Assembly (NCBI RefSeq): GCF_000337555.1
Contig: NZ_AOIO01000017.1
Location: 1-64,000 of the forward strand
DNA from: Natrialba asiatica DSM 12278
GTDB lineage: Archaea; Halobacteriota; Halobacteria; Halobacteriales; Natrialbaceae
Length of the DNA: 64,000 nt
Direction of reading: 5' to 3'
Shown: in pieces, positions 15,126 through 18,817 of the stretch
How the letters are laid out: the number at the start of each line of letters is the position of its first letter
How positions within the stretch are numbered: position 1 is the stretch's first letter
The notes under the pieces: model-generated
Database searches by the model: none
What the model saw: the letters and a program-made list of their open reading frames with translations, nothing else
Told to the model about the DNA's origin: nothing
Position numbers and translations under genes: made by a program

Positions 15126-16511
15126 TCACCCGAGCACAGCGATCGGGATCACGAGCAGCGCACAGACGAGCGCACCGGTTAACGTCGCAAGGAAGTTAAC
15201 GCCCTGATTGCCGAGAACCGCCCCTTCGAGGGTCGCTCCAAGCAGGCTGTCCACCGTCATTCCGGCGACGCCTGCTGCAACAATGATCACCGCACCGATG
15301 GGATCGACGACGGGAAAGAGGACGTAGCTCAGGCCGGCGACGATGGTCGCACCGAGGAACCCGGCAACTTCGCCCTGCCAGGTGACGCCGCCGTCGGTGC
15401 CGGGGTCGACGGGCTCGAGCGTCGTGATCAATCGTGGCGTCTCGAAGACGCTCCCGACCTCGCTCGAGAGCGTGTCGCTCATCGCGGTCGCGACGGAGCC
15501 GGCGAAGGCGAAGAGAAAGAGTTCGGCGTTGATCGACAGGAGGGCGGTTGAACTCGCGGCGTAGCCGAGGACGGCGGCGATGGCGACGGCGGCGTTGCCG
15601 AGGACGTTACCGCTGCCGCGAGCGCCGTTGTTCTCCTCGGCGACGCCGAGTTCTTCTTTTCGGGTGTAGCGGAACTTGGTCGAGAGGCCGCCGATGCCGA
15701 AGAAGGCGATGAGGACGACAAACCAGTTGTAGTCGCCGAGAACGACCGTCAACAGACCGAGGAGGATGCCGGTTATCATGCCGGCGATAGAGGCGGTATC
15801 GAGGGCGTAGGAGACGTAGCCGAGCGCGACGGTCACCGCGAGCGCGCCGAGGATTTCGATCGCTCCGAGTTCGGGTTCGAGTTCGGCGAGCAGCCAGAGC
15901 AGGAGGCCGACCGAGAGCATGACGACCGGGTCGTCGTAGATCAGGAAGGCGTCGCGAAGAAGGGCGGCGAGGAGCGCGCCGCTTGCGGCGAGAAAGAGGA
16001 CGGTCGGGAGGCGGGACTCGACGGGGACGTTCGTCAGGGCGTAGACGGCGGCCTGGCCGGCGACGGCAGCGACGGTTGCGACCAGGCAGAATCCGGTGAC
16101 GGCGGCGATTTCGTTGTCAGTGTTGGTGTCGGTGTCGGTGTCGGTCTCGCTGTCTATCTCTGTGCCCGTCGCCGTCCGAGCGCGGACGAGCCGCTCGGCG
16201 AGGTTGCCGTAGCCGACGAGGACGACGGTCCCAACGAAGACGGAAAGCGGCATCGACGACCCGACCGCCAGAAGGCCGAGGACGACGGCCGAAAGGACGA
16301 ACGTGATGAGTCCGTAGAGGCGGCCGTCCTCGTAGTCGCCGGGGTAGGCAAGCGCCTCGAACGCCGGGCCGGTAACGTCGGTAACGAGAAAGGCACCGAG
16401 CAGAACGACGGCCGCGACGCCCGTTGCAATCGCCGGCCCGGCAAGCGGTACGGCAAGCGAGAGCGTACTGAGGGCCGCGAAGACGCCGGCTCGCCGAACG
16501 GGTGCTGTCAC
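15126..16511 (-). CDS. DUF92 / VTE6-type polytopic membrane protein, prenol kinase candidate
   Basis: A 461-residue membrane protein with about 12 helices. The C-terminal half (about 235-461) matches the DUF92 family (TMEM19, plant VTE6), including GDYNWFVVLIAFFGIGGLSTKF, ATAMSDTLSSEVG and LLGATLEGAVLGNQGVNFL. VTE6 phosphorylates phytyl phosphate. The N-terminal half is an additional helical domain carrying GYGNLAERL, and a six-base repeat encodes Asp-Thr in the loop between halves. Divergent from a cis-prenyltransferase-like gene (155 bases between starts), so a role in prenol or dolichol phosphate supply is plausible. Start is GTG at 16511. Confidence 0.85.
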   Translation of the reverse strand: MTAPVRRAGVFAALSTLSLAVPLAGPAIATGVAAVVLLGAFLVTDVTGPAFEALAYPGDYEDGRLYGLITFVLSAVVLGLLAVGSSMPLSVFVGTVVLVGYGNLAERLVRARTATGTEIDSETDTDTDTNTDNEIAAVTGFCLVATVAAVAGQAAVYALTNVPVESRLPTVLFLAASGALLAALLRDAFLIYDDPVVMLSVGLLLWLLAELEPELGAIEILGALAVTVALGYVSYALDTASIAGMITGILLGLLTVVLGDYNWFVVLIAFFGIGGLSTKFRYTRKEELGVAEENNGARGSGNVLGNAAVAIAAVLGYAASSTALLSINAELFLFAFAGSVATAMSDTLSSEVGSVFETPRLITTLEPVDPGTDGGVTWQGEVAGFLGATIVAGLSYVLFPVVDPIGAVIIVAAGVAGMTVDSLLGATLEGAVLGNQGVNFLATLTGALVCALLVIPIAVLG

Positions 16512-16666: not shown

Positions 16667-17272
16667 GTGGGACTGTACGAACGGTATCTCGCCCGTCGAA
16701 TTCGCCAGTACGATGCCGCTCCACCCGAGCACGTCGCGCTCGTCATCACCGAGCGGGACCTCCTCGAACGCGGTGCCTACGAAACGCTCGTCGACTTCTT
16801 CGAGTGGGCCTTCGAGTACGCCACTCGACTGACCGTCTACGTCAGCGTCCTCGACGCCGCGGCCGTCCCGGCGCTCCGTCGTGAACTCGAAACGATCGAC
16901 GCCCCGCGCGACGTTGCGGTCCGCGGCCCCGACGACCGGACACCGGCCGATGCACCCATCCAGATCGGAATCGGTCTCGGCGGCAAACACGAGTTCACGA
17001 GCGCGGTCCGGACGCTCGCGGAACGCGTCGACGACGCTTCGCTCGAGCCGGAGGCGATCGATGACGAACGCGTCGAGAACCATCTGGTGTTTCCGTCGGA
17101 GCCGGATCTCGTGATCAAGACGGGTGCAGAGCGCCTCTCGGACTTTATGATCTGGCAGTCGGTGTACTCGGAGCTGTACTTTACGGACATCAATTGGCGG
17201 GACTTCCGCAAGCGGGATTTCCTGCGAGCGGTTCGGGAGTACTGCAATCGGTCGCGACGGTTCGGCCGGTGA
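16667..17272 (+). CDS. Non-catalytic cis-prenyltransferase homologue (beta-type subunit candidate)
   Basis: A 201-residue undecaprenyl-diphosphate-synthase-family protein. The C-terminal half is well conserved: IKTGAERLSDFMIWQSVY, then SELYFTDINWRDF, and the extreme C-terminus RSRRFGR carries the family RxG motif at residues 198-200. The N-terminal catalytic HVAxxxDGN motif is replaced by HVALVITERD (residues 22-31), so the essential Asp is Thr. It should therefore not be active alone. By analogy with NgBR/Nus1 it may pair with the catalytic homologue at 17837-18817. Start is GTG at 16667, giving MGLYERYLARRI. Confidence 0.82.
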   Translation: MGLYERYLARRIRQYDAAPPEHVALVITERDLLERGAYETLVDFFEWAFEYATRLTVYVSVLDAAAVPALRRELETIDAPRDVAVRGPDDRTPADAPIQIGIGLGGKHEFTSAVRTLAERVDDASLEPEAIDDERVENHLVFPSEPDLVIKTGAERLSDFMIWQSVYSELYFTDINWRDFRKRDFLRAVREYCNRSRRFGR

Positions 17273-17320
17273 GTCGTCGGACTGCGTCTCCGTATCTACT
17301 GGGGGTTGCTCGCCGGGCGG

Positions 17321-17716
17321 TCAGTACGCGTAATCGGACCGCGTCGAAACGGTCGAGTCACGGGTATCGTCGACGGGAGCGAGCAGGCTCTCTGCGCGCG
17401 GGTGATCGAACGCGACGACGGGGTCATCCATTCGTACGATACCCGAGCGTGCATCGTACTCGAGAATGCCGAAATCCTCGAGCTTCGGCAGAACAGTGTG
17501 GACGAGTTCGATCTCGATCGACTCGGGGGAGTCGTCGTCCCATCGGGCGAGCGTCTCGCTCAACCAGTCGACCGAAACGGGCGTTTCACACGCCGAGAGG
17601 ACGTGGAGTGCGATACGAAGTCGGACGTTCGCGAGGAGCGTATAGGCCTCGTCGAGTGACACGTCCGTCAATCGTACGAACCGTTGGACGTCGACGGGAG
17701 CGCTGCGAGACGACAT
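17321..17716 (-). CDS. DUF7344-type winged-helix protein
   Basis: A 131-residue ArsR-like regulator of the haloarchaeal DUF7344 type. Residues about 20-60 (DEAYTLLANVRLRIALHVLS ending ACETPVSVDWLSETLA) begin the helix-turn-helix and VLPKLEDFGILEYDARSGIV forms the wing. It lies between the two cis-prenyltransferase homologues, on the same strand as the catalytic one (120 bases downstream of it), and might regulate the locus. An AT-rich element (ATTAATAAAATAC, near 17737-17750) sits about 25-30 bases before the ATG and probably holds the TATA box. Confidence 0.8.
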   Translation of the reverse strand: MSSRSAPVDVQRFVRLTDVSLDEAYTLLANVRLRIALHVLSACETPVSVDWLSETLARWDDDSPESIEIELVHTVLPKLEDFGILEYDARSGIVRMDDPVVAFDHPRAESLLAPVDDTRDSTVSTRSDYAY

Positions 17717-17836
17717 TCAGCTACTATTGTCATACTAATTAATAAAATACTTCTGGTTATATAGTTGACGTGTTATCGGTGGTCCATCGCTTCTCCGGCG
17801 ATAGCTCCGGGGCGGACGGGCGAAACGATATCCGGA

Positions 17837-18817
17837 TCAGTCAGCTGTCCGACTACTCGAATCGAGGCCGTCCCCATCCGTCCCGCTGGCGTCGTCCGAT
17901 TCGCGAACGGCCGTCGCATCGATGTCGTCCTCGTGTGGGCGCTCGCCCGTCGGCAGCGAGTCGCGAAACCGGTTGACGATCGATTGAGCCTCGGTTAGTT
18001 CCGTCTCGCTGACGGCTCCGAGGAGAGCGAGCGCCCGTCGGGCTCGCGTGCGACGCCAGGATTCCGCGCGGTGTTCGTACGTCCGAATTCCGCGCAGGAA
18101 GTCCGCCTTCGAGAACTCGGGCCAGTAGGGCGTACAGAAAAAGACGGCCGCCTCGTTGCCGTTTGCGTGCCAAGGCAGGAAATTCGACGTGCGCTCGGCG
18201 CCGCCGGTGCGGATGATCAGGTCGACATCCCGGACCGGCTGATCGTACAGCCGTCGTTCGATGGTTTCGACATCGATCTCGTCGGGATCGAGCGCACCCG
18301 ACTCGACATCGCGTGCGACACCTCGCGTCGCTTCTAGCAGTCGAGACCGACCGCCGTAGGCGAGGGCAATATTGAGGACGAACTGGTCGTAGCACTGTGT
18401 TTTGCCCTCGGCGTAGTCGACGGCGTCTCGTACCCGGTCGGGGAGCATCTCAGTTTCGCCGATGACGCGAATACAGACGTCGTTGTTGTGGACGCGGTCG
18501 GCATCGGCGAACTCGTACAGTTTGTCACAGAGGAGGTCGAACAGCGCCTCGTTTTCTTCGTCCGCCCGTTCGAAGTTCTCCGTCGAGAAGGTATACAGCG
18601 TCAGTTCTTCGACACCGATATCCTGGCACCACTCGAGCACTCGTTCGGTCGTCTCGGCACCGGCGCGGTGGCCGTCGTGGGCGTCTCCGCCGTTCTGTCG
18701 CGCATACCGTCGGTTGCCGTCCTGAATCACTGCGACGTGGGTCGGCGCACCGGCGATTTCACGCGAGAGCAATCGCTCGTAAACGGCATCGACGTGCTGA
18801 CGGAACCACCGCTTCAT
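17837..18817 (-). CDS. uppS: cis-prenyltransferase (polyprenyl diphosphate synthase), catalytic subunit
   Basis: A 326-residue enzyme that extends an allylic diphosphate with isopentenyl units to make the long-chain polyprenol precursor of dolichol phosphate, the glycan carrier of S-layer and archaellin glycosylation. It has the catalytic motif HVAVIQDGNRRYA with Asp33, LTLYTFSTENFERADEE, and the diphosphate-binding IIRTGGAERTSNFLPW. The region where homodimeric enzymes carry the C-terminal RxG reads YEHRAESWRRTRARR and lacks it. A disordered acidic tail of about 55 residues follows. The missing RxG is complemented by the protein encoded at 16667-17272. Confidence 0.92.
   Translation of the reverse strand: MKRWFRQHVDAVYERLLSREIAGAPTHVAVIQDGNRRYARQNGGDAHDGHRAGAETTERVLEWCQDIGVEELTLYTFSTENFERADEENEALFDLLCDKLYEFADADRVHNNDVCIRVIGETEMLPDRVRDAVDYAEGKTQCYDQFVLNIALAYGGRSRLLEATRGVARDVESGALDPDEIDVETIERRLYDQPVRDVDLIIRTGGAERTSNFLPWHANGNEAAVFFCTPYWPEFSKADFLRGIRTYEHRAESWRRTRARRALALLGAVSETELTEAQSIVNRFRDSLPTGERPHEDDIDATAVRESDDASGTDGDGLDSSSRTAD

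Follow-up and report, generated by a model that had tools for sequence, protein, structure and literature searches.

Two complementary cis-prenyltransferase homologues of haloarchaea as candidate subunits of a heteromeric enzyme

The locus and its gene order

The stretch of DNA analyzed here (the window) comprises 64,000 nucleotides from the haloarchaeon Natrialba asiatica, and the features that concern us are collected in Table 1. As had been predicted, two homologues of cis-prenyltransferase (cPT) lie at one locus. Both open reading frames match Pfam family PF01255, and they are the only PF01255 genes in the 4.4 Mb genome. The longer product, referred to here as the long chain, aligns with positions 1-216 of the 219-position profile (E 1.4e-66) and its match ends ahead of the RxG end. 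The short chain aligns through its C-terminal half alone, from profile position 116 to the last position, 219 (E 5.1e-26). The NCBIfam models agree with this picture and place the short chain under the uppS equivalog cut-off. The motifs also read as originally described: the long chain possesses HVAVIQDGNRR and RTGGAERTSNF and is missing the RxG, while the short chain has HVALVITERD, with Thr for the catalytic Asp, and terminates in RRFGR. The combination of Asp and RxG on one chain, which is the criterion for a homodimeric undecaprenyl diphosphate synthase (UppS), is found in neither protein of the window. In the long chain, residues 237-287 occupy the place where homodimers end in RxG, and they resemble the helix-turn-helix of human DHDDS. 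Inspection of the 201-residue short chain revealed no membrane-spanning stretch; its first helix (residues 2-14) is short and polar.

Table 1. Positions, in the Natrialba asiatica window, of the two cPT homologues, their principal motifs and the neighboring genes.
Feature	Position	Strand	Remarks
DUF92 integral membrane protein	15126..16511	-	Pfam PF01940; divergent from short chain; predicted to be lipid-kinase-like
Short chain	16667..17272	+	ORF of 201 aa, GTG start; proposed NgBR-like, non-catalytic cPT subunit
Thr28 codon	16748..16750	+	Short-chain counterpart of the catalytic Asp, from alignment with long chains and UppS
R198-F199-G200, C-terminal RxG	17258..17266	+	Followed in the short chain by the single residue R201
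DUF7344 small protein	17321..17716	-	Pfam PF24035; between the two chains
Long chain	17837..18817	-	ORF of 326 aa; proposed DHDDS-like, catalytic cPT subunit
Residues 237-287	17957..18109	-	Long chain; long last helix and second helix (AlphaFold2 helices 237-270 and 274-287)
R203-F213, RTGGxxRxSNF	18179..18211	-	Long chain; isopentenyl diphosphate site; R203, R209 and S211 invariant (n=124)
Asp33 codon, catalytic Asp of DGNRR	18719..18721	-	Long chain; invariant in 124/124 paired long chains

Gene order was read at 80 haloarchaeal loci. Both genes lay inside the fetched stretch at 52 of these, and at all 52 they are convergent, with a median intergenic gap of 380 bases and many gaps of less than 50. 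Adjacent pairs in about ten further families are likewise convergent, the sole exception being a tandem pair 15 kb apart. Since the long and short genes converge and do not form an operon, their co-expression is not guaranteed. At four loci (L087, L088, L090 and L093) the convergent reading frames have their last 45-48 bases, stop codons included, in common, which makes the 3' ends of the two genes mutually antisense. The DUF7344 gene that lies between the two chains in the window is probably incidental, because the long and short genes are directly adjacent in many relatives. On the other side, the DUF92 gene adjoins the short gene, in divergent orientation, at 50 of the 52 haloarchaeal loci. 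A link between DUF92 and uppS was noted earlier by Makarova and colleagues, who suggested that a kinase acts at some step of isoprenoid metabolism (PMC5898192). Based on this prediction of a kinase-like protein, the DUF92 product is perhaps a lipid-phosphate kinase acting beside the cPT.

Complementary motifs and the proposed division of labor

For a census of the motifs, 124 short and 154 long chains were extracted across the phylum Halobacteriota. Every short chain terminates in RxG followed by exactly one residue, with R198 and G200 invariant, and not one of the 124 contains DGNRR. The position of the catalytic Asp is occupied mostly by T, S or A; an Asp is present there in 10 chains, from which the rest of the motif is gone. 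Conversely, DGNRR is found in all 154 long chains and an in-register RxG in none of them; RxG-like matches in the tails of six were rejected because they are out of register. This complementary pattern is far beyond what chance would produce. It extends to two families in which the short-chain matches are very weak and which still fit, with a long chain devoid of RxG and a diverged short chain that matches through the RxG end. The length of the long-chain tail, on the other hand, differs widely across the phylum.

The two chains also occur together. Two or more PF01255 genes are present in 293 of 294 Halobacteria genomes, and their number is nearly always two. In the phylum as a whole PF01255 was found in 142 of 148 genomes, in nearly all of them as two or more genes, and a search with a short-chain profile was successful in almost every genome that carries PF01255. 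There are a few exceptions: the haloarchaeal genome G072 has a short chain alone, and G378 and G413 each have, with confidence, a long chain alone. Assembly gaps may be the cause in these three. In one family of Halobacteriota (f18, represented by G300, G309, G318, G327 and G334) no PF01255 gene was found, loose thresholds included.

These distributions bear on the idea that the short chain is simply a decaying or non-functional paralogue. Its catalytic half is gone and its N-terminal half evolves fast, as such an idea would have it. The short chain is nevertheless retained in nearly all genomes of the phylum, and an alignment of 72 members of the family contains 16 invariant residues, all of them in the C-terminal half and the RxG among them. 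We regard decay as scarcely credible.

Some insight into what the conserved half might do comes from the human enzyme, in which the tail of NgBR crosses the interface, with backbone atoms of L291 and G292 binding phosphate and the C-terminal K293 contacting R37 and R85 of DHDDS (PMC7573591). The DHDDS residues that touch this tail are R37, N82 and R85 (PMC7573591). Their counterparts in the long chain are R37, N81 and R84, and these are invariant in 124 long chains, as are R203, R209 and S211. The short chain, for its part, ends at the same point relative to RxG as NgBR. When each chain was modeled alone with AlphaFold2, a confident cPT-like fold was obtained for both (pLDDT 85.6 for the long and 87.9 for the short chain). 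The best PDB match to the long-chain model is human DHDDS, with 300 columns aligned, C-terminal helices included, and bacterial UppS is nearly tied with DHDDS on the core. The short-chain model compares with UppS and DHDDS chains at TM 0.6-0.7. Its confidence is lowest at the most conserved interface segment (approximately residues 151-170) and in the tail, which is expected if a partner is missing. When 124 sequence pairs (effective number 78) were subjected to mean-field direct coupling analysis, 28 of the top 50 couplings were inter-chain, versus 50% expected, and hence at the background rate; intra-chain couplings gave no signal either, so this analysis had no power.

As a whole, these results make it very probable that both proteins are subunits of one heteromeric cPT, in which the tail of the short chain completes the active site of the long chain. 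The long chain would bind both substrates and elongate the product using Asp33, having lost its C-terminal RxG. The short chain has lost the catalytic half of the ancestral protein but retains the half that belongs to the dimer interface, together with its RxG tail, and this tail would cross the interface to complete the phosphate-binding site of the long chain, much as NgBR does for DHDDS. The product would be a polyprenyl diphosphate from which haloarchaea make their glycan carrier, dolichol phosphate. The motifs, the complementary loss, the co-occurrence, the gene order and the clades are observed directly; for haloarchaea, the physical complex, the need for both chains and the identity of the product are what we infer. 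The division of labor put forward in the original prediction is thus backed by the motif census, by near-universal co-occurrence, by a single ancient duplication and by orthology, reached by elimination, with the chains of the heteromeric enzyme reported from Methanosarcina mazei (see below).

A different arrangement may be envisaged, in which the long chain dispenses with RxG and functions alone as a homodimer, the short chain being an independent regulator or substrate-binding protein. The haloarchaeal complex is after all a predicted one, the promoter side of the short gene is its own and adjoins DUF92 with no operon shared with the long gene, and R156 and S158, which belong to the substrate site, are kept by some short chains, although they vary across the phylum. 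However, a regulator would need neither the termination of all short chains at RxG plus one residue nor the lack of an in-register RxG in all long chains, and the M. mazei orthologues are reported to make up a heteromeric enzyme. A long-chain homodimer is therefore very unlikely, and we retain the heteromer of long and short chains as the preferred reading.

Ancestry of the pair and its relation to the Asgard and eukaryotic enzymes

Archaeal genomes were sampled from Halobacteriota and Asgard archaea. In a maximum-likelihood tree of 83 rows (LG+C20 PMSF), the long chains form one clade (support 99/97) and so do the short chains (100/100), which implies that both predate the radiation of the phylum. 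A topology in which long and short chains together make a single clade is not rejected (p-AU 0.336). Complementary loss is directly visible in a comparison with the Asgard homodimers: over the N-terminal half identity is 19% for the short and 41% for the long chains, and over the C-terminal half 49% and 47%, respectively. In the preferred reading, the pair goes back to a homodimeric enzyme that was duplicated, each copy then losing what the other kept, before Halobacteriota radiated.

The Asgard genomes were reached with a Lokiarchaeal 16S probe; ten were tested first and 119 were surveyed. PF01255 is present in 110 of the 119, almost always as one full-length gene that matches through the RxG end. 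In each of the first 40 enzymes read the C-terminus consists of RxG and one more residue, and the same holds for nearly every member of a further set; nearly all Asgard enzymes read are single chains bearing both Asp and RxG. The PF01255 model scores human NgBR at 1.8e-10 and yeast Nus1 at 0.0024, and the weakness of the latter score means that a strongly diverged Asgard NgBR could escape detection. One Asgard genome (G513) carries, in addition to a canonical copy (L329), a divergent second cPT (L325) that has DGMRR, ends in RRFSH and is without RxG; it is possible that this copy represents a separate step toward specialization.

In five Lokiarchaeal genomes (G419, G425, G421, G424 and G522, at loci L194, L195, L196, L197 and L322, respectively) a 30-base insert with in-frame stops lies inside the DGN-RR codons of the single-chain gene (LILDG...insert...NRRWA). 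Four inserts were tested; LPKHVGLILDGNRRWA is restored by excising exactly 30 bases and by none of the other lengths between 15 and 59. The insert is capable of hairpin formation, and a bulge-helix-bulge is the fold of one copy; on these grounds we may be dealing with an mRNA intron of the archaeal type, of which examples are known in cbf5 (PMC2738675). What had appeared to be a second, Asp-less Lokiarchaeal copy, and a candidate for an incipient helper chain, was rejected as such because its Asp codon lies upstream, behind the 30-base insert.

The original prediction had left it undecided whether the haloarchaeal division of labor arose independently of the eukaryotic one or was ancestral to it. 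The DHDDS and NUS1 sequences used for this comparison agree with PDB chains; sequences of yeast Rer2, M. luteus UppS and M. tuberculosis Rv2361c were included as well. The topology tests are compatible with both histories, and of the two the independent origin is favored, because 110 of 119 Asgard genomes have a cPT and, among the enzymes read, almost every one is a single chain with Asp and RxG. The DHDDS-NgBR split is thus probably independent of the split in Halobacteriota, although the trees fit either course of events.

In the other course of events, the haloarchaeal pair and DHDDS-NgBR would go back to one ancient heteromer and a single split, with DHDDS and NgBR descended from the long and the short chain, respectively, either through an ancestor or by gene transfer, and with the Asgard archaea having kept or regained a homodimer. 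Several observations lend themselves to this proposal. DHDDS and Rer2 branch with the long chains in the 83-row tree (support 94/92), and constraining NUS1 to the short chains yields a fit equal to that of the unconstrained tree (p-AU 0.553); the NUS1 branches are very long (1.5-3 changes per site), and their position in the tree is without support. A short-chain profile gives a full-length match to NUS1 (E 1.5e-4), and NgBR and the short chains both end one residue past RxG. Other observations weigh against it. The placement of DHDDS with the Asgard homodimers is not rejected either (p-AU 0.302), and the mean identity of DHDDS is 40% to the Asgard enzymes as against 35% to the long chains. 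An ending of RxG plus one residue is found in the Asgard homodimers as well. The VITE stretch that NgBR shares with haloarchaeal short chains might be taken to indicate common descent; we rejected this, since the stretch is missing from the aligned short chains of other classes. Finally, the Asgard single chains with both motifs would require transfer or reversal. A single split is accordingly unlikely in our estimation, and two separate splits remain the favored history.

Comparison with known cis-prenyltransferases

MM_0618 and MM_1083 of M. mazei are reported to constitute a heteromeric cPT with C45-50 products (PMC8131916, citing Emi et al. 2019). In a Methanosarcina-like genome of our sample there are three PF01255 genes; one is the orthologue of MM_0014 (462 bits) and the other two fall in the long-chain and short-chain clades. 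By elimination, orthology of the haloarchaeal chains with MM_0618 and MM_1083 is supported, and the haloarchaeal pair is thus of a known kind. The cPT of Archaeoglobus fulgidus, a member of the same phylum, is also reportedly a two-subunit archaeal enzyme. Distant archaeal paralogues of Z-prenyltransferases were described by Lombard in 2016, without a subunit interpretation in the passages concerned (PMC5088576). A heteromeric archaeal cPT is already known in one methanogen; the haloarchaea widen a known case, and the novelty is modest. As far as we have found, what appears to be new is that the pair is universal across the phylum, that its split can be dated, that the convergent arrangement is conserved and that the Asgard enzymes, in contrast, are homodimers.

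These results suggest that the two-chain enzyme is no oddity of a single methanogen and that, having been fixed by one basal duplication, it is the standard cPT in nearly an entire phylum of archaea. If the eukaryotic split was a separate event, the same enzyme has been divided twice in a similar manner, with the active site and the RxG tail ending on different chains, and this would be a clean case of parallel evolution from homodimer to heteromer. Haloferax volcanii would offer a genetically easy model for a division that is hit by disease mutations in human DHDDS and NUS1. There is also a practical consequence, in that many short chains may carry the annotation of undecaprenyl diphosphate synthase though incapable of catalysis.

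The likenesses and differences may be drawn as follows. With the M. mazei enzyme the haloarchaeal pair shares the presence of two PF01255 chains in one genome, which in haloarchaea would likewise act together for a glycosyl carrier lipid; in the genomes of the Methanosarcina family read here, unlike those of haloarchaea, the two genes lie apart and are not convergent neighbors, and a longer C-terminal extension is often present in haloarchaeal long chains. As in human DHDDS-NgBR, the chain with the catalytic motif is without RxG, and its partner is without the catalytic Asp and carries RxG one residue from the C-terminus. NgBR, however, possesses a transmembrane anchor, which the haloarchaeal short chain does not, and less of the conserved interface sequence survives in it than in the short chain. 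With homodimeric UppS, as in E. coli and the Asgard archaea, the fold is the same and the two haloarchaeal chains jointly hold its motifs; in the homodimer Asp and RxG reside on one chain, whereas in haloarchaea they are distributed over two.
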